Positions 46,811 through 62,546 of a stretch of 64,000 nt of DNA are shown one piece after another. The translations under genes and the position numbers were made by a program. Each line of letters begins with the position of its first letter. Position 1 is the stretch's first letter. A model generated the notes under the pieces. The model saw nothing but the letters and a program-made list of their open reading frames with translations, did not search any database and was not told the DNA's origin. Origin of the DNA: Cytophagaceae bacterium (GTDB lineage Bacteria; Bacteroidota; Bacteroidia; Cytophagales; UBA9547); contig JAIYAU010000026.1 in the NCBI GenBank assembly GCA_027488865.1, positions 1-64,000 of the forward strand, read 5' to 3'.

Positions 46811-46819
46811 GTAAATGTT

Positions 46820-46850
46820 AAGAGGTTTTAATCAATCTTTAAAACCTCTT
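46820..46850 (-). terminator. Hairpin at the end of the prophage late operon
   Basis: A perfect 12-bp inverted repeat (AAGAGGTTTTAA at 46820-46831, TTAAAACCTCTT at 46839-46850) with a 7-nt loop lies 8 nt beyond the stop codon of the methylase gene. The sequence after it in the minus direction (AACATTTAC) is only moderately T-rich, so it may rely on the stem alone. Confidence 0.5.
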
Positions 46851-46858
46851 TAAACATG

Positions 46859-47650
46859 CTACAAATCGTAATTATATGTAAACACTTCTGTCTTGTCTTT
46901 GCCTCTGGTTTTGCTTGCAGATATCTTAAGTGTAACTGATTCTGTTTTCCAATTATTCTTAAGTGTATATTCTTGCAATGCTTCTGAAGGATAAGAACTT
47001 AAAAGAAACTTTCCCTCAATCTTGCTTAACAATTCTAACAACTCAATAAAATCATTTAATGTATATCCACCATAATGACCCATGTCAGAGTTATAATATG
47101 GAGGGTCTACATAAAAAAAAGCATCTTTACAATCTCTGCTTTTGATTACTTGTAAGGCTTCATTGCATTCAATGTCGGTCAAATCAAGCCTTTTGGTTAG
47201 GTTTTTGCAAAACTGAATCTTTTTATTGTGTATTTTTTTAGTACAAGAGCTTCCTGCTTTCTCGTAACCATACCCTGCAAACATTTTACTAGCAAAGCTC
47301 ATATTGCATTGTACCCAGACTGCCCATGCTACCTTAACATCGTTAAAATGTTCGCTGTTTTTTAGCACAAATTGTGATTCTCTGTGTATCCTCCTGCTTG
47401 ATGGAGTTTGTAAAATCAAATGCCTTAAAATTGGAAAATCGGTTTTTAAAACTTTATAAAAAGTAACAATGTGACCGTTTAAATCATTGATTACCTCAAG
47501 CTCGCTCTTAGGCTTTGAGAAAAATACAGCTGCTCCACCTATAAACGGTTCGCAGTATAATCTATGTGCTGGTATCATCTTTATGACACGTGAGGCAAGC
47601 GTTTGCTTGCCTCCATAGTAAGAAATGGGAGTTTTAATTGTTTTTTTCAT
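46859..47650 (-). CDS. Dam-type D12 class N6-adenine DNA methyltransferase
   Basis: A 263-aa enzyme. The N-terminus PISYYGGKQTLASRVIKMIP and the AdoMet-binding EPFIGGAAVFF (residues 34-44) are typical of the D12 class, as is the catalytic DPPY at 182-185. It transfers a methyl group from S-adenosylmethionine to adenine in a short target, often GATC-like; the target cannot be read here. It is the outermost gene next to the prophage terminus, the place where Mu carries its DNA-modification gene mom. That suggests it protects phage DNA from host restriction. No partner restriction enzyme gene is adjacent. Confidence 0.92.
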   Translation of the reverse strand: MKKTIKTPISYYGGKQTLASRVIKMIPAHRLYCEPFIGGAAVFFSKPKSELEVINDLNGHIVTFYKVLKTDFPILRHLILQTPSSRRIHRESQFVLKNSEHFNDVKVAWAVWVQCNMSFASKMFAGYGYEKAGSSCTKKIHNKKIQFCKNLTKRLDLTDIECNEALQVIKSRDCKDAFFYVDPPYYNSDMGHYGGYTLNDFIELLELLSKIEGKFLLSSYPSEALQEYTLKNNWKTESVTLKISASKTRGKDKTEVFTYNYDL

Positions 47651-47681
47651 TATTATTAGGTTGTATTATTTATAATTTAAG

Positions 47682-48533
47682 TTAAACAAAGTTTATAGCA
47701 AAAGTACAAGTTACTTTTTCGTTAGTTACAAAAGTAGGCTCCCATCCATTGTTATTTAATATGACAACTACAGTGTTGGTTTCTAAATACACTTCAGGTA
47801 AGGTCAATGTATTAAGTGCGCCTCCTCCTCCTGGTACAACTCTATAATTTTGACCAACCCCGAATTGAAAGCCAAAATTATCATCTTTTGGACGATACTT
47901 AGGTTTTAAAAGCATGTTTAAAGTGATTGAGTTAGGAGTTGTTATTCCTCCTGCATCTGAGTCTACATTAACTGTTACTTTACCAGAGATTTGTATTACT
48001 CCATTTTTTTTAACCGCGGATAATCTAAGTAAGTCTATTGAAACTCCTGCTACTAAATTTATATCACAAATATTATTAGAGGCTTCATTTGATTGCTCAA
48101 TATAGTCACGTTGTAAATCATACACCACATCATTCCATACTCCAATTTCATTGCCAGTAGCATCGTCAGGCATCAAGACAATGGTTTTATCCCTCAGCCA
48201 AGACTTAACTGCATTGTCCGTAAAAGTCTTTAGTCCTGGTGATGTTATTATATAGAAACAACCTCGGTTTGCAGTGTTAAAGACAGCAGCAGTAATTTGA
48301 TAAATTTCTCCATTATAAAAAATAGAGCCAGAAGTACAGGTATAATCATTACCATCCTTTGTGGTAACGCATCCATGCAGCGCATAGATGGTATCCTCTA
48401 CATATCCCTCGATCAATGACTTAGCCAAAGAAGAGCCAATCTCCTTCGACATGTTATTGAGATGCTCAAAAGTAGCTTTATCTCCCAAAGCAGCCGAATT
48501 GGCTGCAATCGAACTAGTGTTTAAATCTTTCAT
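47682..48533 (-). CDS. Phage tail-fibre/appendage protein
   Basis: A 283-aa protein last in the structural gene run before the methylase. The N-terminus (SSIAANSAALGDKATFEHLNNMSKEIGSSLAKSLIEGYVED) is helical. The middle has the SGSIFYNGEIYQITAA pattern seen in Bacteroidota phage fibre proteins. The C-terminus is beta-rich with a Gly loop (VVPGGGGALNTLTLPEVYL). Its start overlaps the stop of the upstream gene by 4 nt (ATGA). By position it should be a distal tail component that contacts the host surface, or a fibre accessory protein. I cannot name a family. Confidence 0.7.
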   Translation of the reverse strand: MKDLNTSSIAANSAALGDKATFEHLNNMSKEIGSSLAKSLIEGYVEDTIYALHGCVTTKDGNDYTCTSGSIFYNGEIYQITAAVFNTANRGCFYIITSPGLKTFTDNAVKSWLRDKTIVLMPDDATGNEIGVWNDVVYDLQRDYIEQSNEASNNICDINLVAGVSIDLLRLSAVKKNGVIQISGKVTVNVDSDAGGITTPNSITLNMLLKPKYRPKDDNFGFQFGVGQNYRVVPGGGGALNTLTLPEVYLETNTVVVILNNNGWEPTFVTNEKVTCTFAINFV

Positions 48534-49195
48534 ATGTATGCTTGTATTTTATATTTAGTTCCGTACAATCTGTGTTGGTTTATTAGCGATCTTAATTGAT
48601 CTCTCTTGGCACTTGTATCTATCTGAGACAATTTATATTTTACTACAAAATCTGCGTCTTCAGCAAACCAGCTTTCGCCTATGTATGACTTTTGCTCTAG
48701 TTCCAATTCAGCTATCTCGCTGCTTTCCGATTCGTTTTCTCCAATTCGGAAAAAATAATCTTGGGTGTCAAGTTCCTCTATGTAAATGTCCGATTTGCCG
48801 TCTACTGGCTGCCTGAAGCTAGTGCCAAACCACCTGTTTAAAAGGTATTCAAAGATTAAAATCTGACTTGAATAATGTACACGCTCCTTTGCTCCTCTCC
48901 AATCGTTTAAAACCAAGAAGTATTTTTCAGGATTTGTAAAGGGAGTTTCATTCTCTAAGGTATCAGCCAATGTTTCATAAATTTTATTATCAAATCTTAC
49001 CTTCACACCCCTTAAGATTGCATCACCATTATATACTGGGATACTGGCATCCCCAGCTACATAAATCATGAGAACATCATTAAGCCATTGCAGTGGCTTT
49101 AACAAACTTGTAAGCCAAGCAATTCTTTTAGGCTTCCGCTTAAGTGGAGGCAAAAGCCTTTTAAGTTGTATAATGAAATCTATGTTATAATTCAT
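48530..49195 (-). CDS. Phage baseplate/tail protein of the Mu gp48 position
   Basis: A 221-aa protein. It begins with IDFIIQLKRLLPPLKRKPKRIAWLTSLLKPLQWLND, a pattern I associate with the protein encoded after baseplate protein J in Bacteroidota Mu-like prophages. The rest is mixed, with WRGAKERVHYSSQILIFEYLLNRWFG and a charged C-terminus. It overlaps the J-like gene upstream by 11 nt and the fibre gene downstream by 4 nt. It probably connects baseplate wedge and fibre. The assignment rests mostly on gene order. Confidence 0.65.
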   Translation of the reverse strand: MNYNIDFIIQLKRLLPPLKRKPKRIAWLTSLLKPLQWLNDVLMIYVAGDASIPVYNGDAILRGVKVRFDNKIYETLADTLENETPFTNPEKYFLVLNDWRGAKERVHYSSQILIFEYLLNRWFGTSFRQPVDGKSDIYIEELDTQDYFFRIGENESESSEIAELELEQKSYIGESWFAEDADFVVKYKLSQIDTSAKRDQLRSLINQHRLYGTKYKIQAYI

Positions 49196-50057
49196 TCGGC
49201 TCGTAGGTTATTGAAGATTCAATCGTTTGTCCAACTGTGTCTTCAAGTATAAAATAACCTGAGAAAGCAGGATAATTAAAATTATTGACACCTGTGGCCA
49301 AATTGTAGAATTTGGTGCGACTTGCGAATGCCGTGGAGCTTGAACGCCCGGCCATCTCAGTGCAATTAAAATCAATCACACCTTCAGTATTTTTTATGAC
49401 TGCGATAATGTCGGTGTAGGTAGCCTTTCCTCCAAAATTTTGCTGTTGGCTTAAAGTAGCGCAGTAGTTTTGCAATGCTAATTTTACTGAAGCTTTTATA
49501 TTTATAAATTGCCCATCATATTTTAGTAGACCTGCAACAAACAATCTATCAGGGTCATAAGAGTAGGCTATGATTTTTGTGCCTGCAAAGTGCATCCCCA
49601 AGTCTAAATAACTTTGCAGTGCAGCAAGCTCCTGACTTGTCAGCTTCTCAGGAACGGTTAAGCCTTTGGCAGTTTTTAACTCTACCAGTTTAGTAGCCCT
49701 CTCGACCAAGGCACATCTGGTAATGATTTTGTAATCTTTGTTTTCTGACTCATACAACACGGTGAAATTATCAGTTGATAAGTAAAACACCTGCAAAACA
49801 TCTGCATTGTATTGAAAATTGAAAACTTGAGCGATCAGCCAATTGGGAGAACCAACACCAGCTTTGGCAATTTTACCATCAATTTCGGTGGTGAAAAAAT
49901 CAAACATTTTTTCATGCATCCAAATGCAAGTGGCCGTGATTCTTGCCCACAATATGTATATACTTACAGATATTGGGCTGTTAAGCTGCGCAAGAACAGT
50001 TTGATTGTTCTTTTCCTCTATTATCTGAGCGTATATTTGTGATATTGATCTAGCCAC
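49185..50057 (-). CDS. Baseplate J-like wedge protein
   Basis: A 290-aa protein that starts at a GTG (no near ATG). The N-terminal ARSISQIYAQIIEEKNNQTVLAQLNSPISVSIYILWARITATCIWMHEKMFDFF resembles the opening of the Bacteroidota version of baseplate protein J/Mu gp47. The central part has the repeated NIKASVKLALQNYCATL / TYTDIIAVIKNTEGVIDF layout of J-type C-terminal domains. It should form the wedge ring of the contractile baseplate. A 27-nt gap separates it from a small gene upstream, and it overlaps the next gene by 11 nt. Confidence 0.7.
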   Translation of the reverse strand: MARSISQIYAQIIEEKNNQTVLAQLNSPISVSIYILWARITATCIWMHEKMFDFFTTEIDGKIAKAGVGSPNWLIAQVFNFQYNADVLQVFYLSTDNFTVLYESENKDYKIITRCALVERATKLVELKTAKGLTVPEKLTSQELAALQSYLDLGMHFAGTKIIAYSYDPDRLFVAGLLKYDGQFINIKASVKLALQNYCATLSQQQNFGGKATYTDIIAVIKNTEGVIDFNCTEMAGRSSSTAFASRTKFYNLATGVNNFNYPAFSGYFILEDTVGQTIESSITYEPNEL

Positions 50058-50083
50058 TTGATTTAAAATTTAATGTGTGTTAA

Positions 50084-50392
50084 TTAATTAAAGCCTTTGT
50101 TGTCGTCAACAAATTTGATCAACTCCTCAATCACTTGGTCACGAGGTTGGGTTGCAAACTTGTCATCCCATTGCTTAAAATCCAGCGCAGCGGTTTGATT
50201 AGGATTAGCTTGGCCTAATGGCAAACGAACCATTTGACCGAAACCTTTGATTTGGTTGCCTTCTTTGTCATGGCCTGTTACAGCCAGTAAAACAGTTGCA
50301 CGTTTTTGCGTTACTGAGTACTCTTGGAAACCTGCGAATGTCACATTACGAGTGACTCCCGTAACGTTTGGTATGTTTGAAATTGTTGTCAT
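50084..50392 (-). CDS. Small conserved phage structural protein
   Basis: A 102-aa protein lying between the fibre module and the baseplate J-like gene. It begins MTTISNIPNVTGVTRNVTFAGFQEYSVTQKRATVLLAV and contains a beta-hairpin-rich N-terminal half and a helical C-terminal half (DFKQWDDKFATQPRDQVIEELIKFVDDN). I do not recognise it. Composition and location point to a minor tail or baseplate component. Confidence 0.65.
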   Translation of the reverse strand: MTTISNIPNVTGVTRNVTFAGFQEYSVTQKRATVLLAVTGHDKEGNQIKGFGQMVRLPLGQANPNQTAALDFKQWDDKFATQPRDQVIEELIKFVDDNKGFN

Positions 50393-50416
50393 GTTTATTT
50401 ATTTAAGTTTACTCGT

Positions 50417-50701
50417 TTATAGAGATTTTATTTTTTCGTAAAGAGGTACAATTGAATTTATAATTTTATTTTCTTTTGATAGATAGTCCATTAACATGTT
50501 CATATATATACATTCATTTAAATTGAAATTTAATTCAATTTGGTCGTTGGGTGAATTTGTCTTGGCCTTAATTATTTTTTGTGTTATTGCCATTTTGCTT
50601 TTTATGTTACCATATGAGTCTGGCACAGAATCTATACTTTTAATAATAATATCAATTTGTTGTAGCTCCTCATTGGTAAAAACTATTTCTATTGTTTTCA
50701 T
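50417..50701 (-). CDS. Small phage protein of unknown function
   Basis: A 94-aa, Ile/Asn/Lys-rich, mostly helical protein (MKTIEIVFTNEELQQIDIIIKSIDSVPDSYG...). Its ATG overlaps the stop of the 469-aa fibre gene by 4 nt (ATGA), which supports translation. It has no signal peptide or membrane segment. Function unknown; it could be a fibre chaperone given its position directly after the fibre gene. Confidence 0.6.
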   Translation of the reverse strand: MKTIEIVFTNEELQQIDIIIKSIDSVPDSYGNIKSKMAITQKIIKAKTNSPNDQIELNFNLNECIYMNMLMDYLSKENKIINSIVPLYEKIKSL

Positions 50702-52107
50702 GACTCTAATTTTATTGTATAAACTGTATCGTTGTTTTTAAATTTTAGACCAGTCTGCGAATTGTCTTGTCTCCACAAACATCCATTGGGAATTAAACTT
50801 GTATTACCAGGGTTGCTAGTTAAGTCAAACCAAATTGGTATAACGTTATTACTTCCTCCAAGTGGCTGACCAAAATGTACAGAAGCATATCCTAAAACTC
50901 CTGTATTATCATATCCAAAATACACGTCTTGTACTACTGATAATCTGTTAATGCTTGTTCTTGATTTAGATAAAAAAAGCGTTCCGCCTCCAGAAATTGA
51001 AAAATTACCTGTACTTGAAACAGATGGTGATCCTGATGTATTTAATCTCAAGAAATCACTAGCATCTGCTTTTGCATTTAAAGCAGTTTGAAGTCCAGAA
51101 ATATTGCTAATACTATGAGAATGTGAGCTATTTGCTTTTGCATCTAAAGCAGATTGAAGTCCAGAAATGTCGCCAATACTATGAGTATGTGCGCTATTTG
51201 CTTTGGAGTCTAAAGCAGATTGAAGACCAGTAATATTACTAATGCTATGTGAATGTGAGCTATTTGCTTTACCATCTAAAGCAGATTGCAAATCACTTAA
51301 CCCTACGGCCACATAATCCTCAACCCATGACTTATTTATAAGGCTAAACTCAGTAAAATTTGCACTTAAATCTTGATTATATTTTAGACCTTCAAAACTA
51401 GAAGATTGTGAATAAATAGATATGTCATCAGGACTAATTTGAAAGCCCGTGTACTGAAACCCCTCCCTTATTGATAAACCTTCATCAGCCCTGATATAAG
51501 CAACGCTCTCATAGACATTGTCCCAAAACGTGACACCAACTCCTGTTTCAAATTCAATATTACCTGTCACACGCTGACCAGAATCGACACTAGTCCCTCT
51601 TCTAGAGACAACATATCTTGCAGGCACTAAAGAAGCTCCATCTGGTTCATCTGCAATTGCATCGTCCCAATTTGCATCAAACATTGTAATGCCTCTAAAA
51701 TTATTATTATTGCTTCTTAATTGAACATAATTACCATATATTTCAAAACCTGAATCGTAAACACCTTCCTTTAGATGAAATCCATCAAAACCGTGCAAAT
51801 AATTATATACTCCATTAGGACTGTCATAAAAGAAAAGTCTCACAAAATCATCTCCATCGTTTTCTTTAAATAAAAGAGAGCCACTAATAGCGCGAGGATC
51901 AATATCATTAGGGTCAACATTAACAACGTTTCCAGTATATTTTATATAGCTATTCTCTATCTCATTTAATAATGAAGACAAATCTATGTATTCTATAATA
52001 GATGCTAATTCTACCTTTCTTGTGCCTGCTGCTTGCTCAATTATAAACAAGTCATTGTCTTGCAATGCAGATGCAACTGGTAATTCTGGTATTTTTTTCT
52101 TAGCCAT
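50698..52107 (-). CDS. Tail-fibre protein with tandem H-x-H repeats
   Basis: A 469-aa protein. The N-terminus (MAKKKIPELPVASALQDNDLFIIEQ) is the usual start of Bacteroidota prophage tail fibres. Residues ~270-350 hold three and a half 22-residue repeats of the form LQSALDxKANSSHSHSISNI, whose HSH/HTH motifs resemble metal-binding or knob repeats of trimeric fibres. The C-terminal ~110 residues are a beta-rich tip domain (DVYFGYDNTGVLGYASVHF ... CLWRQDNSQTGLKF). It should be the main host-recognition fibre. It sits directly after the LysM-like baseplate gene. Confidence 0.8.
   Translation of the reverse strand: MAKKKIPELPVASALQDNDLFIIEQAAGTRKVELASIIEYIDLSSLLNEIENSYIKYTGNVVNVDPNDIDPRAISGSLLFKENDGDDFVRLFFYDSPNGVYNYLHGFDGFHLKEGVYDSGFEIYGNYVQLRSNNNNFRGITMFDANWDDAIADEPDGASLVPARYVVSRRGTSVDSGQRVTGNIEFETGVGVTFWDNVYESVAYIRADEGLSIREGFQYTGFQISPDDISIYSQSSSFEGLKYNQDLSANFTEFSLINKSWVEDYVAVGLSDLQSALDGKANSSHSHSISNITGLQSALDSKANSAHTHSIGDISGLQSALDAKANSSHSHSISNISGLQTALNAKADASDFLRLNTSGSPSVSSTGNFSISGGGTLFLSKSRTSINRLSVVQDVYFGYDNTGVLGYASVHFGQPLGGSNNVIPIWFDLTSNPGNTSLIPNGCLWRQDNSQTGLKFKNNDTVYTIKLES
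51070..51291 (-). repeat. 66-bp tandem repeats inside the tail-fibre gene
   Basis: Three full 66-bp units (51226-51291, 51160-51225, 51094-51159) and a partial fourth encode the 22-residue LQSALD-KANSSHSHSISN repeats. Unit boundaries were set from the leucine codons at 51291 and 51225. Near-identical DNA could allow unit number to vary by recombination. Confidence 0.85.
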
Positions 52108-52627
52108 TTATTTCTAGATTTTCTTCTAAGTTTGTTACTATAAAATCTCCTAATTCAGTTAATAAGAAGGAATCAATTTGTTCTTTCTCATTATGCGTAT
52201 TAACCCTCTTTTTATTCTTTTTAAAGTAGGTTTTAAAAGGGTTTAAAACACTGTTTTGATTTATGTTCAATTCCTGACCAGCTTTTAAAAACCCATTTAC
52301 ATCAACTATTTCATTGTTAATAAGCAAATCAAAAAAGGCTTCTACATCACCATACTCCTGAATGGTAACATCAAACAAGCTTTGGCCATCTGCCACAATC
52401 AACTTAGTATTGTCGATTACCTGTACAGCAGCTATCTCAGTTTTAAATTTACTTACTACCTTTTTTGATGAATCAATCAAAAACGATTGACTTCCATCAA
52501 TGTCAGCGTTGATATCATTTATGCCATTGTCTACCAATAAATCAAAAAAAGCCTCCATGTCACCGTATTGAGAAACGGTGACATCAATCAAAGATTGACC
52601 AGGACTATTTTTAAAATTATTCAACAT
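52100..52627 (-). CDS. LysM-like duplicated tail protein
   Basis: About 175 aa from the ATG at 52627 (a TTG lies one codon upstream). It consists of two homologous modules of ~80 residues: GQSLIDVTVSQYGDMEAFFDLLVDNGINDINADI and GQSLFDVTIQEYGDVEAFFDLLINNEIVDVNGFL. These look like LysM-type folds, in which the first strand, QYGD helix and second strand order is conserved. LysM-like domains occur in baseplate linker proteins of contractile tails, such as the gp53 family. An internal duplication is clear. It overlaps the gp25-like gene by 11 nt. Confidence 0.7.
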   Translation of the reverse strand: MLNNFKNSPGQSLIDVTVSQYGDMEAFFDLLVDNGINDINADIDGSQSFLIDSSKKVVSKFKTEIAAVQVIDNTKLIVADGQSLFDVTIQEYGDVEAFFDLLINNEIVDVNGFLKAGQELNINQNSVLNPFKTYFKKNKKRVNTHNEKEQIDSFLLTELGDFIVTNLEENLEING

Positions 52628-52922
52628 CAAATGTTAAGTTTTTTATACCTTGATTTAAATCAAGGTTACTAATTTTCATGCCTTCCATTTCTTCAATCTG
52701 TGTTCGCAGTTCGCGCTCAAACTGGTCTTCCAATCCTGCATCAGGAGCATTTAAATACCTTACAACTCCAAGCCCAGTCAAAGGACTATGTTTGTAATCC
52801 CCAGGCATTGCTTCCATAATGTCTTGGCAATGCTGCTGGGTTGATTCTCCAAATTGAAAATCACCGTTTTCAATTAGGTCATCTCCTTCATCATCTTGCA
52901 AAATGTCGTTACGAATTGCCAT
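52617..52922 (-). CDS. Baseplate wedge protein, gp25/W-like (Mu gp46 position)
   Basis: A 101-aa protein. It opens MAIRNDILQDDEGDDLIENGDFQFGESTQQHCQDIMEAMPGDYKHSPLTGLGV, a form typical of the small gp25-like wedge protein in Bacteroidota Mu-like prophages. It then has an amphipathic helix (EDQFERELRTQIEEMEGM) and ends ISNLDLNQGIKNLTFDVE. Its position between the spike gene and other baseplate genes supports the call. It overlaps both neighbours by about 11-14 nt. Confidence 0.72.
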   Translation of the reverse strand: MAIRNDILQDDEGDDLIENGDFQFGESTQQHCQDIMEAMPGDYKHSPLTGLGVVRYLNAPDAGLEDQFERELRTQIEEMEGMKISNLDLNQGIKNLTFDVE

Positions 52923-53457
52923 GCTTTACACTTGTGTTTTCAATTTGTGCTCTTGCAGTATTTGCGCCAAACGCACCAACAACAAAAGAAGGTGGTGAAG
53001 TTTGAGTTCCTGTCTCTGAGTGTGTATGTAGGTTGTAAAATTGTACCAAGTCTCTTAATTTTTCTTCAATCAAATTCAATTGATTGGTTAACTCTGGCAC
53101 CTTTACCAACCCTCCAAACCCATCTCCATTTAATTTTATTAAGCTCCCATTTACCAGCACATCCCCTTGAGCTTTTACCACCACCTTGGCAACCTCACTT
53201 ACTGAAGCAATAAAACATTGATCTTTAAGATCATTGATAAAACCTAATAGGACAACACTTTCAAGCTTTGGCACAAATAAACTTTTAGTATTTTTATTGG
53301 CTATGGTAGCTGTTAATCTTGCTATTAACATCATTTTGTTATCATTAAGCTCTACCTCACAAGTTTCCTTTTCTTCATCAACACTTTTGACAGTGGCAGT
53401 CTTAAAGGCTGTTACGAGGTGTTTTTTTACAAGCTCCCAAACCAGTTCCTCTATCAT
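52909..53457 (-). CDS. Baseplate spike protein, gpV/Mu gp45-like
   Basis: A 182-aa protein. Residues ~1-90 form an OB-fold-like beta domain (CEVELNDNKMMLIARL, FVPKLESVVLLGFINDLKDQCFIA). Residues ~90-120 form a short beta-prism repeat (VVVKAQGDVLVNGSLIKLNG). The C-terminal portion contains FYNLHTHSETGTQTSPP, a HxH-type metal site often found near the spike apex. It should be the trimeric membrane-piercing tip. It overlaps the hub gene by 4 nt. Confidence 0.75.
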   Translation of the reverse strand: MIEELVWELVKKHLVTAFKTATVKSVDEEKETCEVELNDNKMMLIARLTATIANKNTKSLFVPKLESVVLLGFINDLKDQCFIASVSEVAKVVVKAQGDVLVNGSLIKLNGDGFGGLVKVPELTNQLNLIEEKLRDLVQFYNLHTHSETGTQTSPPSFVVGAFGANTARAQIENTSVKHGNS

Positions 53458-54425
53458 AGTTTTCTACCAATGGTACAAATACGCCTAAAGCCTTGTTTTC
53501 CAAATACCACCTCAATGGCATCAATTAAGTACTTGCCTTTGCGCTCAGGGAACAGATTGTCACGCAGGGTTACAGAATCCCCTTCGTGTAGAAATGGCTG
53601 CCCAAAGCCTGTAACTGTTCCTGCGTACCCATGATAATTAAATCGCTTTAATTCTTGTTGAGCATACACCTTTAGTTCACTTTCGTTTAACTCAGAGAAA
53701 TTGAGCGTTCTTATATCACCTTCAGCATCTTGGCTAGGAATCCAAACGGTCAAAACTTTGCCATCAGGCAAATGGGAGATGGCTTTAACTTTTAACTTAT
53801 TGTCATCAGCAGTTTTGTATTCCAGTTGATTTTCAGCTACGTTTTTCTGAAAGTCATATACATAATTAGTAGTGGATGGTACAAGATCAAACGGAAAGCC
53901 ACTATAAAGAACTTTCCCTTTAAAAAAGAAAGTAAGGCCATAAGACCTTTTTATTTCTGCGAGTACTTGCGCTGCACTTACATCGTTGCCAATTTGAAAG
54001 CTGCCAAGGTTAATATTTTCATCTGTATAGATTACTTCATAACCTGAACACACATAACTTACCACATCTTTTAAGGTAGCTTTTGCCCAGCTTTTTGGAT
54101 TTAGTACCCTTTTTTTAAGTTGGTACATTTCATCCTCACACTGCAATACAATCGGTATACTCAAATCTAAGCTTCTTACATAGCCTGTAAATTCGGTTTG
54201 GTTGTCACCATCATAACCAAGTTGAATCGCTACCCGATCGCCTCGCTTTAACCTGTCAGACACATTAGTAGTCTGATCTGGAAACTTGAGTGATTTAGGT
54301 AGCTCAATCGTAGCTGTAGAAGTCATCTCATTGATCGACCGCCTTACAACCACCTCTGAAACAGCATCCTTAAAAATGATGTTGGCAATACTTATATATG
54401 AGCTTAATACAAACATCCAGATCAT
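53454..54425 (-). CDS. Baseplate hub protein (gpD/Mu gp44-like)
   Basis: A 323-aa protein. It includes LKRGDRVAIQLGYDGDNQTEFTGYVRSLDLSIPIVLQCEDEMYQLKKRVL, the VgrG/gp27-like beta-barrel pattern of hub proteins, and ends FGQPFLHEGDSVTLRDNLFPERKGKYLIDAIEVVFGKQGFRRICTIGRKL. The hub joins the spike to the tail tube. It is flanked by a DUF6046-like gene upstream and the spike gene downstream, as in other contractile phages. Its start overlaps the upstream stop by 4 nt. Confidence 0.78.
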   Translation of the reverse strand: MIWMFVLSSYISIANIIFKDAVSEVVVRRSINEMTSTATIELPKSLKFPDQTTNVSDRLKRGDRVAIQLGYDGDNQTEFTGYVRSLDLSIPIVLQCEDEMYQLKKRVLNPKSWAKATLKDVVSYVCSGYEVIYTDENINLGSFQIGNDVSAAQVLAEIKRSYGLTFFFKGKVLYSGFPFDLVPSTTNYVYDFQKNVAENQLEYKTADDNKLKVKAISHLPDGKVLTVWIPSQDAEGDIRTLNFSELNESELKVYAQQELKRFNYHGYAGTVTGFGQPFLHEGDSVTLRDNLFPERKGKYLIDAIEVVFGKQGFRRICTIGRKL

Positions 54426-55075
54426 TGATTTTCTAAAATTATGAGTTCAATAGCCTTATGACTTCTTAATGTAAGTGTAAATGGTTGTGTGTCTTCATAT
54501 CCCTCTAGTTTTGGAACTGAAAGCCCTTTTACAACTACTTCTTTAATGCCATATAAATTGCATAGTCTGCTGTCAATTTTTAGCCTTGCATTTTCCTTAA
54601 AAGCCCTGTATAGTTCTTTAAGCTGCTCTTCAGGATAAATGCCCGTTCCATCAAAAAGCAAACCCACTAGATTTAATTCAACAGGACTGCTACCAATGTA
54701 CTCAACAACTTCGTCACCTCCCTGAAGAGGCGTTTCTAAAATGTTCTTACCAAAATCAAAGTTTAGCAAAGGGTCATTTGGAAACGTGTAATTAACCCCA
54801 TCTTCAAATCCTGAAAGGGTGATAGTGTCAAAGTAAAATCCGCCATAAGGATTTCTGCGTTTCTTTTTTGGGTCAGTTTTAAAAGCTTCACCTTTGTACT
54901 TTCTTAAAGGTGAATTGTTGATAGCTTGGTTTATGACCTCAGCAGTAAGAGCCTTACCAGCTTTTTGGCCTGCTTCTTTTACAACATTAATACCACCAAA
55001 TTTACTATTAGATGCCCCATTGCTTAACAAGGCATCTAACCGTTTATTTAGTTCTATTTTATACTTGTCCGCCAA
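54422..55075 (-). CDS. DUF6046-like tail/baseplate protein
   Basis: A 217-aa protein that appears to use a TTG start at 55075, since a stop lies upstream in frame with no ATG between. The basic N-terminal region (~1-75) ends in KKKRRNPYGGFYFD. The rest is beta-rich, with FEDGVNYTFPNDPLLNF, VELNLVGLLFDGTGIYPEEQLKELYRAF and a C-terminal FTLTLRSHKAIELIIL. It resembles the family named DUF6046 in Bacteroidota Mu-like phages, probably the counterpart of Mu gp43. The trans-frame chaperone extension ends inside its first codons. A tape-measure gene would normally precede it and is missing. Confidence 0.68.
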   Translation of the reverse strand: MADKYKIELNKRLDALLSNGASNSKFGGINVVKEAGQKAGKALTAEVINQAINNSPLRKYKGEAFKTDPKKKRRNPYGGFYFDTITLSGFEDGVNYTFPNDPLLNFDFGKNILETPLQGGDEVVEYIGSSPVELNLVGLLFDGTGIYPEEQLKELYRAFKENARLKIDSRLCNLYGIKEVVVKGLSVPKLEGYEDTQPFTLTLRSHKAIELIILENQ

Positions 55076-55588
55076 TCTTAATGAATCCTTTATCCGCTAG
55101 AAATTGTACTTGTCTCCACTTTAAACACCACTCTTCTAATGGTAAATTTTCTGGAAACGGAATGTGCAAGAAATGAGTAATTAAAGCGTTGTGTTCGTTT
55201 ATCCAACCTATATCAGTTGGATACTCCGCTAAAAATTTACTAACTCGGCCTCCACCCCTGAAATCCAGATTTCAACAATTTTGCTACCAGCAGCAAGCGT
55301 TAAAGCTGAGTCTTCTTTTATTTCATTGTCACCATCCACCCAGCAATGTTTTACCAATATATCGCATAGCTTATGCATGTTTTTTTCTAAGAATGGCATA
55401 GCCAGACTCAATACTTTCGGGGAAGGTTTTTCAAAGATTCCTACAAACACTCTGTCTTTTACCTTCTCGTGTTTTACAGAGATTGCTTCAGCATTTGGCA
55501 ATCCTAGTACATCCCTACCTTTTGCTTCTATCACCCTTTTCATGTCATCCAATGACATGTTTTTAGGGGTTTTAATATCTTTTGACAT
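55059..55588 (-). CDS. Tail assembly chaperone with -1 frameshift extension
   Basis: The zero frame (55588 to 55229) encodes 119 aa, MSKDIKTPKNMSLDDMKRVIEAKG... ending VEAELVNF. The last codons read GTA AAT TTT TAG, containing the canonical slippery heptamer A AAT TTT (55238-55232) immediately before the stop. Shifting by -1 opens a further ~57 codons, starting LAEYPTDIGWINEHNALIT and continuing with WCLKWRQVQFLADKGFI, to a TAA at 55059-55061. Contractile and siphophage tails commonly make two chaperone forms this way (as in P2 E/E' and lambda G/GT), which help the tube assemble on the tape measure. It lies after the tube gene, as expected. Confidence 0.85.
55232..55238 (-). promoter_or_regulatory. 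-1 ribosomal frameshift slippery site
   Basis: On the minus strand A AAT TTT matches the X XXY YYZ consensus (AAA, TTT, T) in the correct frame. It is followed directly by the zero-frame stop TAG. I did not check for a stimulatory downstream pseudoknot. Confidence 0.8.
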
Positions 55589-55612
55589 ATCTTTTAACCT
55601 TTTAAAAGGCTT

Positions 55613-56038
55613 TTAAACATTTACAACATTGTATTTAATCCCAAGTACTAATAATTCTAGATCACTGGCTAAGTCCATCCCTTCAACGTTTCTTCTTAAT
55701 CCTGTAAACTTGCAGGTTATGACATCGTTGAGAATTCCATTGTCTTCGTTGAGGAAAGTGACGATAATGTTAAATGGCTTGATTTTTTTAATATCACCAT
55801 CAATACCTTCAATAGATTGAAGGTTTTTAATCTCATCCATCCCTAATGTATAGGTGCCAAAGTAAGTTTTCTTACCTTCTGAATAGCCAATGACCTCATT
55901 AGAACCTCCATGATTAACTTGGTTTTCTTGCGTGTCACCATATTCTATTTTTTTCCAGTTAGTGACTATAGCTCCGAGCATGGTTATCTCAGCGTCACCC
56001 TGGTCATACATTTTTCTATTTGCATTTACAACGCTCAT
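55613..56038 (-). CDS. Phage tail tube protein
   Basis: A 141-aa protein with the layout of contractile tail tube subunits: MSVVNANRKMYDQGDAEITMLGAIVTNWKKIEYGD at the start, a TYFGTYTLGMDEIKNLQ segment, and long beta strands ending DLELLVLGIKYNVVNV. It lies 2 nt after the sheath gene and before the chaperone gene, the standard order. It should polymerise into the rigid inner tube. Confidence 0.75.
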   Translation of the reverse strand: MSVVNANRKMYDQGDAEITMLGAIVTNWKKIEYGDTQENQVNHGGSNEVIGYSEGKKTYFGTYTLGMDEIKNLQSIEGIDGDIKKIKPFNIIVTFLNEDNGILNDVITCKFTGLRRNVEGMDLASDLELLVLGIKYNVVNV

Positions 56039-56040
56039 TA

Positions 56041-57669
56041 CTATGCTATTTTAGTGGTTAAACCAAAGTTTACTTTTATTATATCTGCAATGCCATAAGG
56101 CACGATTCGAAGCGCACAATTAAGAGCTTGTGGAGAATTGAACAAATCACTGTCAGGATCAACATACAGATTTTGGCCACTTACCTCATCGCTCATTGCT
56201 TCAGTAATAGCACTTTCGCCAAGTGTCTTAAAGGCTATCAATGTTCCTTGTGGTAGCTTGCCAGTGGTTGGGTTAACTACTTGCGGAGATTTTACCTTTG
56301 GTATCAACTTAGCATACACAAGCCTTATAGACTTATCCGCTGTGCGACCTAGATAAATTCTGCTTTCAATCACAAATGTTTCACCACCTTCAGAGAATGT
56401 TAATATTTTGTTGCCTTCTCCATTTCTTGACAACTTGGCACATGTCCAATCGTTATTCCAAAAAATGCCATCTACATTAGCATATCTTTGAGGGAATACA
56501 TAGCCGTTTTGGTCAAGTATTTCCCAATCTTCTTTAACAGAATCAATGGTTTGGTGATTGCTTAAGCCTGCATTGAGCCAAGCCCCTTCAGCTACACTTT
56601 GAAGCTGTCCAATCTCTACCCATGCGACTGATTCGTTTACCTTCCTTGCTGCCACATCACCTAGTAATGTACCTATGGCTGCGTGTTTATAATATAGTGG
56701 CAACTCTTCAGCTTTGTTCCAATCTTGGCCAATGCACAAAGTGACATTTTTAGCGTCTACATTGCCCGGGAGATTGTGTAAGTCTTGTGAAGTACTTACT
56801 GGATTTGTAAAGGCTTTGCCCTCACATATGATTTGGCATGGCATCGCCTGAGCAAAAGCCCAATCATACAATGCCTGTGCTTTCGCAATAGCATTAAAGC
56901 TATCAGCAGCCATTTGATTTACCAAAGCAGGAGAATAGCCTACGCCATTTTCAAACTGAGTAATATTGTAATCAATGTCACCTGTGGTATCAACTGAAAG
57001 TCCTTGATCATTTAGTTGATCTCCATATCCCCTTGGTGCAGATAGCAAAACATTAGAGGTAGCTCCAGCAGCTGTAAAACCGTGTAAAGAGGTGCCTTCG
57101 TTTATAATAGCTCTTAGTGCACCAGCCATTAAAGCAGGAGTTGTAACATCTGCTGTTTTGATTAAGCTAGCCAAAAGTAAAGTCGTTGCACCAGTTGCAA
57201 TACTTATAGTGATCTTGTCTCCATCTTCACCGATTTCAATGATTTCTATATTTCCTCCTGTTGCTGTTTCTTCATCAGGATTAAAACCAAAAGAAATTTG
57301 CTTGATTTCGCTTTTTGCGTCAATCAAGGTTTTCTTGGAATATACAAGGTCTACATCCTCAATCATTTGTACCAAGGTTACACCCATTGGCACAATCATA
57401 AGGAATAACTTTGTACCTGGTCTATTTCTTGTTTTTCTGTAAAACTCTTTAATGTGATAAAATACCAGTACCGCGTTGCTTTTGTCATACTCGGCAGTAA
57501 TACCAAGAGCTTTTGCATCACGCTCGCTGCGCAGGGTATACACCTGCCCTGTGTTCAATTTGCCTGATACGGCAAAACCATTCAAAATAAGCGCACTAGT
57601 GCTATCAGCACTTGTGCTTACTCCGCTTGGAGGGGTGTTTTTTTGGAAAAGTATGCCTTTAGTTGACAT
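56041..57669 (-). CDS. Contractile tail sheath protein (DUF2586-like)
   Basis: A 542-aa protein of the sheath family found in Mu-like phages of Bacteroidota (DUF2586 type). The N-terminus MSTKGILFQKNTPPSGVSTSADSTSALILNGF and the YHIKEFYRKTRNRPGTKLFLMIVP segment are characteristic. The C-terminal ~120 residues, from SEGGETFVIESRIYLGRTADKSIRLVYAKLIPK to IADIIKVNFGLTTKIA, form the interlocking domain. It contracts to drive the tube through the host envelope. Its presence makes the tail contractile (myovirus morphology). Confidence 0.88.
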   Translation of the reverse strand: MSTKGILFQKNTPPSGVSTSADSTSALILNGFAVSGKLNTGQVYTLRSERDAKALGITAEYDKSNAVLVFYHIKEFYRKTRNRPGTKLFLMIVPMGVTLVQMIEDVDLVYSKKTLIDAKSEIKQISFGFNPDEETATGGNIEIIEIGEDGDKITISIATGATTLLLASLIKTADVTTPALMAGALRAIINEGTSLHGFTAAGATSNVLLSAPRGYGDQLNDQGLSVDTTGDIDYNITQFENGVGYSPALVNQMAADSFNAIAKAQALYDWAFAQAMPCQIICEGKAFTNPVSTSQDLHNLPGNVDAKNVTLCIGQDWNKAEELPLYYKHAAIGTLLGDVAARKVNESVAWVEIGQLQSVAEGAWLNAGLSNHQTIDSVKEDWEILDQNGYVFPQRYANVDGIFWNNDWTCAKLSRNGEGNKILTFSEGGETFVIESRIYLGRTADKSIRLVYAKLIPKVKSPQVVNPTTGKLPQGTLIAFKTLGESAITEAMSDEVSGQNLYVDPDSDLFNSPQALNCALRIVPYGIADIIKVNFGLTTKIA

Positions 57670-57753
57670 TGAGACCTTTTTTAAGTTTTTAAAGTATGTA
57701 AATAAAGCGTTTTATAGCCCCCTTTTTATGTTAATTAAGTGAGGCTATTTGGT

Positions 57754-58101
57754 TTATTCTTGAGCGTTTCCGCTTGCATTTTCAGTACTGGCAGCTGTGT
57801 TTTCAGATGCCGTTTCAGTCTTATCCGTTTCTGTGGCTTTACCTTTTTTGGTGGTTTTTGCCTTATCTCCTTCGGTTTCGGTTTTACCTTTGCCCTGAGG
57901 ATCATTCTCAACAGGTTCAGCAAGCTCTTCGCTGGTGACTTCCCTGTATCTATCCTTGTTTTGGTTTACCGACAACCTTACAAGGTTTTCAGAGGTAAAC
58001 AATTCTTTCAAATCATTTACAAATACCTTGGTATCGTTGTAGGTCTTTTTTAGCTCGATTGCTGCTTCTTTAAGTTCTTTTGAAAGTGTAAGTGCGTCCA
58101 T
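57754..58101 (-). CDS. Small charged phage protein with low-complexity tail
   Basis: About 115 aa from the ATG at 58101 (MDALTLSKELKEAAIELKKTYNDTKVFVNDLKELFTSENLVRLSVN). A longer frame starting inside the preceding gene is less likely. The N-terminal half is helical. The C-terminal half is disordered and built of Lys/Glu/Thr/Ala (KTETEGDKAKTTKKGKATETDKTETASENT). It lies just before the sheath gene. I cannot assign a role; a neck, connector or scaffold-like part is possible. Confidence 0.65.
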   Translation of the reverse strand: MDALTLSKELKEAAIELKKTYNDTKVFVNDLKELFTSENLVRLSVNQNKDRYREVTSEELAEPVENDPQGKGKTETEGDKAKTTKKGKATETDKTETASENTAASTENASGNAQE

Positions 58102-58106
58102 GTTTT

Positions 58107-58748
58107 TTAAAACAGTTTTAAACGTGTTGATACTAATAGTAAAATAATGAATACTGCCTCCGCAATCGCAACTGTAATGAGCCATTGCGGTGTTTTCTCC
58201 ACGACCTCCCTTGTATTGGAGAGCCGTTCAATTTCTTTTTGCTGTGTGGTGATCAATTGATCCTGCGTTAGACAAAGCGTGTTAAGGTTTCCAGTGCTAT
58301 CTAGCTGATAAATCAGCCTTGTTTCACCTTTTCTATAAATCACCTTAGGTGAATGCCCCATAGCTTTTAAAGCTCTTAAAGCCACTAAAAGACTATCCAT
58401 ATTTAATTGAGTCTTTACTGTGTCTCCTTTAACAAAAACAGGCACTTCCTTAATGGTTATAGTCTCTTTAACAGAAACAGGAGGCTTAGTACAAAACGTC
58501 ATTAGTAAGAAGCAAAACAGAAACCCAATACAAGCAGCCATGCCCCCTTTACTGTCTGGAGGATTTGGCGATACAAGCAAAATCGATGCAATGATTAAAG
58601 CAGGATAAGCCCTTTCCCAGTCCCAGTTAATTGCAGGATGATAAACACAAACAAATGTGGCTATTGCTATGATTGAACCTATGAGGGTTGTTATCCAACC
58701 ATGTTTAATGTTTTTAAGAAGCTGAAGCAAAGTTTCCATTTTATTCAA
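58107..58748 (-). CDS. Multi-pass membrane protein of the lysis module
   Basis: A 213-aa protein. Four hydrophobic segments are visible: IGSIIAIATFVCVY (near 20-33), YPALIIASILLVS, MAACIGFLFCFLLMTF and the C-terminal WLITVAIAEAVFIILLLVS. Between the third and fourth lies a periplasm-type loop with a helical stretch (NMDSLLVALRALKAMG, CLTQDQLITTQQKEIERLSN). Its start overlaps the muramidase stop by 8 nt. Membrane helix plus long coiled loop, next to holin and endolysin, makes a spanin- or antiholin-like role plausible, not shown. Confidence 0.65.
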   Translation of the reverse strand: MNKMETLLQLLKNIKHGWITTLIGSIIAIATFVCVYHPAINWDWERAYPALIIASILLVSPNPPDSKGGMAACIGFLFCFLLMTFCTKPPVSVKETITIKEVPVFVKGDTVKTQLNMDSLLVALRALKAMGHSPKVIYRKGETRLIYQLDSTGNLNTLCLTQDQLITTQQKEIERLSNTREVVEKTPQWLITVAIAEAVFIILLLVSTRLKLF

Positions 58749-59286
58749 TTTTTATGGCTTTGGCTTTTTCATAAGCCAAAGCAAGTTTAGTGTCGTAATC
58801 ATTTTTCTTGTAACCAGGACCATTATACAATCTTGCGAAAGTTGCCCAGTCTTTTGTTTTTAGGGCATTGATCATCTTAGGTTGTTTCTTAATGAAAGAA
58901 ACCATTCCTTGAAGTTGCCAATACTCACTAAGTTCAAAAGCATTCACCATGTCGGTAACGGTTTTGTACCCAGCCAATTCATGGTTAAATCCCATGATCT
59001 GACCAAGTCCCCAGCTCGTAGCCTCTAAAGCCTCTACCTTGTTTATGGCAGCAGCTTCTTTAAAGGCAGCCCACTCTTTAGATTGAGATTCAACCCCGTT
59101 TATGATTCTCTTGCCAGTTGCTTTTTGGAAGACATGCGGTTCGAACTGTAAAAGAATAAGCCCCGTTTTTCTGTCAAACCCTGTTCCAGAGGTCTCTATT
59201 AAGATCACCGCTTTAAGTAGCGCAAACTCAATAAATGAATCTTTGGCAACTTGTGCTATGTCGGAGTTACTCAGGTATTTGTTCAT
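58741..59286 (-). CDS. Endolysin, N-acetylmuramidase of the DUF3380 family
   Basis: A 181-aa protein spanning one muramidase domain. It contains AVILIETSGTG with a probable catalytic Glu near 31, LILLQFEPHVFQKATG, ATSWGLGQIMGFNHELAGY and DWATFARLYNGPGYKKNDYDTKLALAY, the signature blocks of this family. It cleaves the glycan backbone of peptidoglycan at host lysis. No signal peptide is present, so export depends on the holin encoded upstream, whose 3' end it overlaps by 20 nt. Confidence 0.93.
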   Translation of the reverse strand: MNKYLSNSDIAQVAKDSFIEFALLKAVILIETSGTGFDRKTGLILLQFEPHVFQKATGKRIINGVESQSKEWAAFKEAAAINKVEALEATSWGLGQIMGFNHELAGYKTVTDMVNAFELSEYWQLQGMVSFIKKQPKMINALKTKDWATFARLYNGPGYKKNDYDTKLALAYEKAKAIKIE

Positions 59287-59515
59287 CTGGTTTGATTAGT
59301 TTAATTATCCATTTACAAACTAGCGCACCAAAGAACCCAGCCATACCCGTTAGAAAGGCTATCACAATTGCATGAAGATCGTCTTGCACGTCAATCTTGT
59401 GAGTAATCATTGCATAAAAACCGCTTGCAATACCCGAGGCAGTGCCAGCAGCCTCCCCAGCATGTTTTTTTAAGGCAATTAGTATGTAAATCAAATATGT
59501 AATTAGCGTATGCAT
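59267..59515 (-). CDS. Holin-like small membrane protein
   Basis: An 82-aa protein with two hydrophobic segments, LITYLIYILIAL at the N-terminus and AIVIAFLTGMAGFFGALVCKWII nearer the C-terminus, separated by a Gly/Ala-rich stretch and a charged loop (HKIDVQDD). It ends in a short charged tail. Size, topology and position directly before the muramidase gene point to the holin that permeabilises the inner membrane. A 69-nt gap separates it from the capsid gene. Confidence 0.75.
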   Translation of the reverse strand: MHTLITYLIYILIALKKHAGEAAGTASGIASGFYAMITHKIDVQDDLHAIVIAFLTGMAGFFGALVCKWIIKLIKPDEQIPE

Positions 59516-59584
59516 CGATTTTTCAGTTTAGCCCCCTACGGCTTACAAAGCTTTCAGGGGCTTGGGAGGGAGTTGTATTTTTAA

Positions 59585-60730
59585 TTAGGCAGCAGCAGCT
59601 GAATAAACCGCTCCAATACATTTGTCACGCATTGAGAGTGCAGTGTAGAATTGTTCAAATCCTAACTCCTCTGCGCGATTTTCAGTATTGATATCTTTCT
59701 CTTTGTAAAACATATCCAATGTACCTGTTGCGTGCATTACCTCGCCTTGGCAATAGAATAGCGAACTTACCGTGTCAGTTGTTGGGGCAGCAGCTGCGCC
59801 AAATGACTTCTTAGCGCCAGTCGACTTGTTATAAGTAGCAGTACCAGAGTACACGTAAATATCCCAGCCATACAAGTTCAATGGTACACCATTTTGTATG
59901 TTCATAAATGCTTTGAAGAGGCTGATATCTTGAACTGCCAAGTCTGCTACATGGTTAGGGTGTAAAACACAAACACGGCCTTCTTTACTCCATTTTTTAG
60001 TATCAAAAGCGTTTTGCATCCCTATAAGAATTTCAATGGTAAAACGTTTGAAAGGAGTTGCTCCACCATCACTCGCCCCAGTTGTGGGTATCACAATTTT
60101 ATTAGTACCATCTGCTGAAGGTGCCCAAGCGTGAGCTGTCACATCAGTTTGCTTTTCTCTTAAGCTGTTTCTATGTTCCTGAACGATTGCATTCACTGCC
60201 GAGAATGAATATTGTTTTTGTTTAAAACCTCTTACTCTTGTATTTTCAGTTTCAAACTTCTTTAATGGTAAGGTCAAGGCTTGTGGATCAAACTCAACCG
60301 TTGTAATTGGATAAGTGTTGTTATCAATTAGTACGTTTGGAGCTGCCCCATATTCAGCAAGGTTAATGACGTTATTATTTACCTCGCTAGACAAATCGAC
60401 CGACCGAGTAATAAAATCAGATGATCGCCAAAAATTTGTAAGTAATACATCAAGCCATACTTCTTTAAGTACTCCTGCCATTGCTAGATTATTTCGATAG
60501 CCAATAGGAGTAGACCATTTGTATAAAATAATGGGTACAAAAACAAAGAAAGCAAAAACGGTTATTGATACATTTACGCTGATAAGAGCAAATGCGCTAG
60601 AAAACAACATACCTGAAGCGGTGTTGAATAAAAGGGCGGAGAAATTAAAACGTTTTGCCGCTATTTCCTGCTTTTCAAAAGCAAAGAAACAGGTGAAAAA
60701 CAGGAGCAAACTTTGAATTATTTTTTTCAT
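59585..60730 (-). CDS. Major capsid protein with an N-terminal hydrophobic leader
   Basis: A 381-aa protein with a clear ATG (MKKIIQSLLL). Residues ~1-83 are hydrophobic and include two membrane-like segments (IIQSLLLFFTCFFAF and LFSSAFALISVNVSITVFAFFVFVPIILY). From Met84 (MAGVLKEVWLDVLLTNFWRSSDFITRSVD) it has the pattern of an HK97-type major capsid protein of Bacteroidota Mu-like phages, through WSKEGRVCVLHPNHVADL and LYGWDIYVYSG to the C-terminus FYTALSMRDKCIGAVYSAAAA. The gene may also be read from 60481. The leader could be a cleaved delta-domain or membrane targeting segment removed by the upstream protease. Membrane leaders are not usual for capsid proteins. Confidence 0.82.
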   Translation of the reverse strand: MKKIIQSLLLFFTCFFAFEKQEIAAKRFNFSALLFNTASGMLFSSAFALISVNVSITVFAFFVFVPIILYKWSTPIGYRNNLAMAGVLKEVWLDVLLTNFWRSSDFITRSVDLSSEVNNNVINLAEYGAAPNVLIDNNTYPITTVEFDPQALTLPLKKFETENTRVRGFKQKQYSFSAVNAIVQEHRNSLREKQTDVTAHAWAPSADGTNKIVIPTTGASDGGATPFKRFTIEILIGMQNAFDTKKWSKEGRVCVLHPNHVADLAVQDISLFKAFMNIQNGVPLNLYGWDIYVYSGTATYNKSTGAKKSFGAAAAPTTDTVSSLFYCQGEVMHATGTLDMFYKEKDINTENRAEELGFEQFYTALSMRDKCIGAVYSAAAA

Positions 60731-60801
60731 TTTAAAACGATTTTATAGTGTGTTAAAGTGTGTGCTTATTACTTGCTTTATGTTATTTAAAATACTTTGA
60801 A

Positions 60802-61929
60802 CTAGCCTTTCATGTCAGGCTCAACGCCAAATTGGCTTTTATACAAGGCTATGAATTGCGCAGGATTCTCTTTTTCCATTTTCTCCAAACCTTTAGGGTC
60901 TTTTTTGGACATCTCCATAAATGACATAGTCACTGGAGCTGTAAGGGTTGCACCTGCTTGAGCGATAATCTGCGTTGGAGTAAGAGTGGTTACTGCAACC
61001 TTGCCTTGAATCTTAGCAATAGCTGCTCTGCCATTTTCCAAGTCGTTTTCCAACAAGGCGGTAAAAACTGGTCTTTCAGCTTCAGTAAATTTCTCTGCTT
61101 TGATAGCAGCTGTGATTTCGCTTTCAATAGCTGCTTTGCGCTCTGCTTTGATACTTGACTCCGCTTGTATTAGCTTTGCTTGTAATTGCGCATTTTCATT
61201 TTTTAAACTTTGTAATGCAGCTGTAATTTCTGCATCAGTTGCATCCGCTTTTAATCCAAGCAGCGCAATCAAGAGGTCTTTATTCATTTTGTTTTTATTT
61301 TGGTGAGAAAGTTGCTTTTCAAATCTTGACACAATTTCGGCTGTGGCCACACCGTTAAGGTCATTATCATTAATAGCTGCTATGGCAGCCTGAATCTCAT
61401 CGCATAGGCCAGCAGCTTTAGCTTCTACAGCAGTAAACCAAGTGTCTTTTTTATCTGCCATCCAAGCGTCGATTACCTTGTCTGGCTGGTTGGTTTTGGC
61501 TTTGTAGATCGCTTTCATGTCCGCAGTAAGCTTGTCCATTTGTTCAGCTGTGGCACGTAAGTCATTTGCAGTACCAGCCACACGACCTTGAGGCGCATGA
61601 ATCATAATTCTTGCGTTGGTAGCCATTACACACTTTTTACCACCAAGCGCAAGGATGCTTGCCATGCTTGCTGCTATTCCATCCACATAAGTAGTGATGT
61701 ATCTATCGCTGCGCTTCATGGCATCGTACATAGCCAGCCCTTCAAACACATCTCCTCCATCGCTATTAATGCGAACCTCTATGTTTTTAATCATAGGAGA
61801 TAGATTATTGAGATCACTGATAAACTTGGCTGCGTTGATCGCTTCCTTATCGCTTGAGATGATGCCATAACATTGTATGACCGCTGTGGTGGCATTGAGG
61901 GCGAATATGGTGTACCAAGGTTTTATCAT
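60802..61929 (-). CDS. ClpP-like prohead protease fused to a scaffold-like C-terminus
   Basis: A 375-aa protein. Residues ~10-185 form a ClpP-family serine protease: IEVRINSDGGDVFEGLAMYDAM, the nucleophile in GIAASMAS (Ser88), and His111 in IMIHAPQGRVAGT. The C-terminal half (~215-350) is helical, alanine- and lysine-rich with coiled-coil character (LQSLKNENAQLQAKLIQAESSIKAERKA), like a scaffolding domain released during head maturation. It lies 71 nt upstream of the capsid gene, as expected. This is the first gene of the leftward late operon. Confidence 0.88.
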   Translation of the reverse strand: MIKPWYTIFALNATTAVIQCYGIISSDKEAINAAKFISDLNNLSPMIKNIEVRINSDGGDVFEGLAMYDAMKRSDRYITTYVDGIAASMASILALGGKKCVMATNARIMIHAPQGRVAGTANDLRATAEQMDKLTADMKAIYKAKTNQPDKVIDAWMADKKDTWFTAVEAKAAGLCDEIQAAIAAINDNDLNGVATAEIVSRFEKQLSHQNKNKMNKDLLIALLGLKADATDAEITAALQSLKNENAQLQAKLIQAESSIKAERKAAIESEITAAIKAEKFTEAERPVFTALLENDLENGRAAIAKIQGKVAVTTLTPTQIIAQAGATLTAPVTMSFMEMSKKDPKGLEKMEKENPAQFIALYKSQFGVEPDMKG

Positions 61930-62099
61930 GTGTGTTTTCTGTGCGATTACATGACAAATGTGGGGGGCTTTTTAAAGGTTTAAAAATGGTTATTACGCTT
62001 ATTCCGTGATTTCAAGGGCTTATTACGCCAATAGCGGAATAGGTGCAAACACGATTATTTAAAGGTTTAAAAACACCCGTTTTTTGTAAGAAAAAAGGA
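61930..62099. promoter_or_regulatory. Divergent control region between capsid and terminase operons
   Basis: 170 bp between the protease gene (leftward) and the small terminase gene (rightward). A perfect 16-bp direct repeat TTTAAAGGTTTAAAAA lies at 61971-61986 and 62058-62073. Between the copies are two TTATTACGC direct repeats (61990-61998 and 62020-62028) and an inverted pair, ATTCCG near 62001 and CGGAAT at 62035-62040. This symmetry suggests operators for divergent phage promoters. No standard TAnnTTTG element is evident, so an activator or phage-specific factor may be used. Confidence 0.5.
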
Positions 62100-62546
62100 A
62101 TGTCTAACAACAAGAGGGAGCTGAAAAATTTAGCAGAGGGATTGTACCTGTACTCTGACATGTCACAAAAAGACATTGCAGCTATGTTGAATGTCACCGA
62201 AAAAACCATCACCGATTGGAAACAGGAAGGCGAATGGGAGGAGATCAAAGCTGCGTATGGAATTACCCGTGACAAGATCATAGCCAACTACTACAGGCAG
62301 ACCTTTGAAATCCAAGAAAAAGCAAGGGACGAAAAGAGAACCTTGACAAGTGGCGAAACTGATCAGTTGGTTAAAATTGCCAATTGTATTGAGAAGCTTG
62401 ACAAGAGCATAACAATGCATGACCGTGTGCAAGTGTTTATGGACTTTAATAACTGGCTGGTTACCATTGATACCGAACTTGCTAAAACACTTAGCTTAAA
62501 GCAACAATCCTATTTAAAGTTTCTGGTTAAACTACGAGGTAAATAA
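62100..62546 (+). CDS. Terminase small subunit
   Basis: About 148 aa from the ATG at 62100. A GTG at 62043 would add 19 residues but lies inside the direct-repeat control region. The protein starts MSNNKRELKNLAEGLYLYSDMSQKDIAAMLNVTEKTITDWKQEGEWEEIK, a helix-turn-helix DNA-binding domain typical of small terminases of Mu-like phages. A helical oligomerisation part and a C-terminal tail (QQSYLKFLVKLRGK) follow. It should recognise phage DNA for packaging. The stop overlaps the next start by one base (TAATG). Confidence 0.82.
   Translation: MSNNKRELKNLAEGLYLYSDMSQKDIAAMLNVTEKTITDWKQEGEWEEIKAAYGITRDKIIANYYRQTFEIQEKARDEKRTLTSGETDQLVKIANCIEKLDKSITMHDRVQVFMDFNNWLVTIDTELAKTLSLKQQSYLKFLVKLRGK

Follow-up and report, generated by a model that had tools for sequence, protein, structure and literature searches.

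A Mu-like prophage with its tape-measure gene in the portal operon, apart from the tail assembly chaperone

In the transposable Escherichia phage Mu (NC_000929), whose portal, minor head protein, G, sheath, tube, chaperone and hub genes all lie on one strand, sheath and tube are followed by the chaperone gp41 and, directly after it, by the tape measure gp42, then gp43 and the hub. Two Mu-like phages of the Winoviridae, Winogradskyella phage Peternella_1 (NC_062754; tail 105.8 nm, PMC8776804) and Flavobacterium phage fF4 (MN850656), have divergent late operons, two in Peternella_1. Peternella_1 encodes its tape-measure protein (669 aa) in the classical slot, between the chaperone and the DUF6046/hub genes, and the tape measure of pippi8-1 is in the classical order as well. 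In fF4 the tape-measure gene (12078-14078, minus strand) lies between MuF-like and gpG-like genes, and the chaperone (23388-23732) is beside DUF6046 (23916), both on the opposite, plus strand. The 2020 fF4 paper (PMC7761591) describes a cultured phage that is released spontaneously and has a contractile tail of ~95 nm, and it already remarks that the tape-measure position varies, so the basic fact of the split is in print; the portions considered here do not treat it as a parting of tape measure and chaperones. Beyond that paper, we found nothing in the literature on gene order in Mu-like Bacteroidetes phages.

We analysed a window of 64,000 bases (bases 1-64,000 of a contig of 218,495 bases), and also annotated the contig past 64,000. 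The window ends within a prophage flanked at both junctions by TTATATA (46750-46756 and contig 83461-83467). The prophage interrupts cobS, a cobalamin gene within the cob operon, and the C-terminal end of cobS resumes after the right-junction TTATATA. The shared core of the Winoviridae (Clp protease, capsid, neck protein, sheath and phage protein D) was found in full, using models whose seeds came from the prophage and from fF4, Peternella_1 and pippi8-1. The prophage is complete-looking, Mu-like and contractile-tailed, of the Winoviridae kind. The following features lie in the window:

46757..64000, no strand: the window's part of the Mu-like prophage, inside the broken cobS; the prophage continues to ~83460
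56041..57669, minus: tail sheath, 542 aa (Pfam DUF2586, 3e-30; phrog_907 tail sheath, 4e-22)
55613..56038, minus: tail tube, 141 aa (phrog_4579 tail protein, 3e-14; place after the sheath)
55229..55588, minus: tail assembly chaperone, 0-frame product, 119 aa (position between tube and tape-measure slot as in Mu gp41)
55059..55238, minus: chaperone extension by putative -1 frameshift (AAATTTT heptamer at 55238-55232; frame closes at 55059)
54422..55075, minus: DUF6046 baseplate/hub protein, 217 aa, TTG start at 55075 (Pfam DUF6046, 1e-25; phrog_5233 baseplate hub, 5e-11)
53454..54425, minus: baseplate hub, phage D-like, 323 aa (phrog_4930, 2e-70)

The tail genes on the minus strand thus run sheath, tube, chaperone, DUF6046, hub, and the initial annotation was right that this cluster has no tape-measure gene. 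The chaperone is homologous to the genes in the same place in Peternella_1, fF4 and pippi8-1, and matches phrog_19076, a family of unknown function (4e-11). Its reading frame ends ...GTA AAT TTT TAG, with the slippery heptamer A-AAT-TTT directly before the TAG; this heptamer is weaker than the A-AAA-AAG type found in many relatives. The extension frame was open for 58 codons in only 31 of 5,000 shuffles of the same bases. The putative -1 product would be 176 aa long, and its end at 55059 overlaps the frame of the directly adjoining DUF6046 gene by 17 nt. Since the extension runs into the DUF6046 frame, there is no space for a further gene, as had also been claimed. No tape-measure gene was found between chaperone and DUF6046 or, in agreement with the initial annotation, in the rest of the prophage sequence that the window covers: in the left operon there, just two ORFs exceed 450 aa, encoding the 542-aa sheath and a fibre-like protein of 469 aa, and the left-operon genes scanned against PHROGs and NCBIfam gave no match to a tape-measure family. 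The window lacks the gene only because it ends at 64,000.

Two other features of this operon were noted. The sheath is ~100-150 aa longer than those of the surveyed relatives (mostly 390-440 aa), which suggests an inserted domain. Between the capsid and sheath genes, where fF4 has only one 101-aa gene, lies a lysis-like cassette (window 57754-59515) with a small membrane protein, a Muramidase-family enzyme (5e-49) and an Rz-like membrane protein.

From the end of the window onwards, the rightward operon and the right part of the prophage contain:

62546-64072, plus, past the window end: large terminase, first gene of the rightward operon (36 and 32% identity to the fF4 and Peternella_1 terminases)
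64074-64625, rightward operon: DUF1320-like
64678-66012, rightward operon: portal
66005-67345, rightward operon, before the tape measure: MuF-like minor head gene (TIGR01641, 2e-10)
67450-69153 (= L001:7450-9153), plus: tape-measure protein, 567 aa (Pfam TMP_3, TIGR02675, phrog_2335)
69157-69687, rightward operon, after the tape measure: gpG/Phage_tail_S (Phage_tail_S, 4e-11; phrog_26, 4e-19)
69684-70265, rightward operon: tail-completion-like
78895-79866, leftward: ATPase-partner-like ORF, 323 aa
79935-82100, leftward: DDE transposase-like ORF, 721 aa
82401-83276, rightward: helix-turn-helix regulator, in the repressor's place at the end

The last three assignments come from inspecting the sequence and from positions that correspond to those in fF4. 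Beyond the tail-completion-like gene, leftward genes extend up to the ATPase-like and transposase-like ORFs, and the rightward regulator follows. Scanning the rightward operon for promoters gave 22, against 22.2 expected by chance.

The initial annotation had offered three explanations for the gap, namely that the tape measure had moved to the rightward operon, had been replaced by a different length-control mechanism, or had been lost cleanly, and had proposed a search beyond 64000 for a helical protein of >500 aa with membrane segments. A tape-measure protein of 567 aa is there, and of the three explanations only the move holds for this prophage; the finding of the gene disproves the other two. 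The tape-measure gene lies in the head/portal operon, 3.4 kb past the window end and 12 kb from the chaperone, on the opposite strand, and so does not follow the chaperones. Its 567-aa product matches Pfam TMP_3 (4e-31, 108.5 bits; cut-off 41), TIGR02675 (5e-18, 65.1 bits; cut-off 21.35) and phrog_2335, tail length tape measure (4e-48); no other protein of the genome matches TMP_3. Its model is almost entirely helical (mean pLDDT 47, low outside residues ~100-245, the TMP_3 domain), and a Kyte-Doolittle scan gave a single weakly hydrophobic stretch, 401-419. Summed helix propensity, a simple measure, did not set the tape measure apart from the prophage's other proteins. The phage records nearest to it by tape-measure similarity belong to other phage groups and share only the TMP domain, at ~25% identity. 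The tape measure is present, in the portal operon, neither lost nor replaced. Taken by itself, the window, which has no such gene, would fit a prophage that had lost its ruler and was a defective remnant or made tails of uncontrolled length; given an intact 567-aa gene in the same prophage, with intact neighbours on the same strand and the other late genes also intact, we regard loss as extremely improbable.

We surveyed relatives by DUF6046 searches of Bacteroidota genomes and terminase searches of genome and viral contigs, reading gene order locus by locus. Because the tape measures of most relatives fall below Pfam TMP_3, home-made profiles seeded from four phages were used. Among 54 loci with both slots readable, 44 had a tape measure in the classical slot alone, where it separates chaperone from DUF6046; nine had it in the portal operon alone, with the chaperone adjoining DUF6046; none had it in both, and one (L111) in neither. 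L111 is in genome G102, where several modules are alike and may be degenerate. The tail side is cut off in L146, the tenth relocated locus. The exclusion of one slot by the other gives a Fisher p of 2e-9, which overstates independence because some rows of the survey are near-copies. Relocated tape measures scanned from six loci match PHROG tape-measure families. The comparison with related phages that had been proposed bears out the gap, which is common to the nine loci with the gene only in the portal operon, fF4 and the prophage itself among them. The initial annotation had named two findings that would count against it, a tape measure at another place in the prophage or one in this slot in close relatives, and both occur (67450-69153 here; 44 of 54 loci); its description of the cluster stands, and its readings of replacement or loss do not.

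With MuF and gpG as neighbours, the 67450 gene departs from the textbook position, which might suggest that it belongs to something else and that tail length is controlled in another way. Following the tail assembly chaperones is a usual, not a defining, trait of tape-measure proteins, and one that fF4 lacks as well although its contractile tail works. The product matches TMP_3, TIGR02675 and tape-measure families of PHROGs, is the genome's sole TMP_3 match and is homologous to classical-slot tape measures, and the slots exclude each other in relatives; a different mechanism is accordingly very unlikely. We are nearly certain of the preferred reading, namely that this Mu-like prophage of the Winoviridae kind carries its tape measure in a second, divergent late operon (terminase, DUF1320, portal, MuF, tape measure, gpG, tail completion), where it most likely is a normal ruler.

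The chaperone is kept in the relocated state, usually with its frameshift extension. It was present in all nine relocated loci that have the tail side, and in eight of the nine scored a slippery heptamer is followed by a -1 extension 51-72 codons long. These extensions end -33 to +19 nt from the DUF6046 start, so the slot has closed scarlessly, and the extension persists with no tape measure next to it. Equivalent extensions are also found in most canonical loci.

The survey brought up several other arrangements. In genomes G102 and G047 (9-10 Mb; L103, L104, L110, L111), there are five to seven DUF6046 matches in head-tail modules with protease, capsid, sheath, tube, a chaperone of 206-227 aa, DUF6046 and then a gene of 352-398 aa that reads like a cytosine methylase. 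No tape measure was found in either slot of these modules, which are decayed copies or a third arrangement. The classical slot of L095 is filled by a 367-aa gene (L095:8563-9663) without a PHROG match, which may be a short, diverged tape measure. In several Bacteroidales Mu-like loci (L150, L156, L161, L178, L181, L183, L198) a phage D-like hub gene (317-320 aa) lies between terminase and portal in the rightward operon; tail genes other than the tape measure therefore also switch operon. L115-L119 have a trio of chaperone-like gene, DUF6046 and 433-aa hub without a sheath match; its neighbours in L119 are fibre-like genes (~1,040-1,060 aa) and a divergent protein of 1,313 aa that carries an M23 peptidase domain. 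Many Prevotella-type Mu-like loci (L135, L140, L163, L165 and similar) have the gpG/tail-completion pair turned round with respect to MuF.

Classical-slot and portal-operon tape measures are homologous for the greater part of their length (hhalign probability 99.9, E 1e-30, 582 columns). The prophage's own is closest to classical-slot tape measures of other phages (L005, 39.9% over 376 aa), that of L121 is most like that of L014, and that of L146 most like that of L180, both L014 and L180 being classical. Thus one protein family fills both places, and slot and sequence have been reshuffled. The classical order is probably ancestral, because Mu keeps it. The number of moves was addressed with trees, all quick, built with simple models and containing long branches. 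In the combined tree, eight relocated phages, the prophage and fF4 included, form one clade (support 100), with L121 and L146 apart; three slot changes are needed, at least two of them forced by starred branches. The head-gene tree rejects a single clade of the ten relocated loci (p-AU 0.0003), but not once L121 and L146 are left out (0.28). These results would fit more than one relocation, with L121, and perhaps L146, having moved separately from the prophage/fF4 clade. On the other hand, the tail-gene tree, in which the same eight form a clade (100), does not reject a single clade of all nine relocated phages (p-AU 0.58), exchange of head modules could explain the head-gene tree, and L121 is a long branch in trees of this simple kind. 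We give repeated relocation slightly less than an even chance; the trees would fit either two or more moves or a single move followed by head-module exchange. With similar reserve, it is possible that in Bacteroidota Mu-like phages the tape measure has changed between the two divergent late operons on two or more occasions, singly in every case and with the frameshifting chaperone staying in place, which would make the near-universal chaperone-tape measure neighbourhood dispensable for assembly.

As to how the split would work, the tape measure would be made from the rightward late mRNA, and the chaperone and its frameshift product from the leftward one. The simplest mechanism would have both chaperone products bind the tape measure in trans. 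The tape measure would then be wound between the hub and the growing tube, setting tail length. The ratios in fF4 (666 aa for 95 nm) and Peternella (669 aa for 105.8 nm) predict 81-90 nm for 567 aa, so that the prophage's tail, if functional, may be ~80-90 nm long.

Annotators expect a tape measure immediately behind the chaperone pair; in this phage lineage the portal operon is the place to look, and a tail cluster without one is no sign that the tail is defective or lacks a ruler. The natural split also offers a way to find out whether tail chaperones must be produced beside, or together with, the tape measure.

Among described phages, Mu has the same late genes as the prophage, but on one strand, and Peternella_1 shares the Mu-like character, the two divergent late operons and the gene families, but, like pippi8-1, not the place of the tape measure. 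Only fF4, likewise Mu-like and contractile-tailed, shares the split in full, in a different host and with a tape measure of 666 aa versus 567 aa in the prophage (23% identity in the alignment made). The arrangement described here is a further case of the one already published for fF4, unusual in the place of its tape measure and otherwise largely ordinary.
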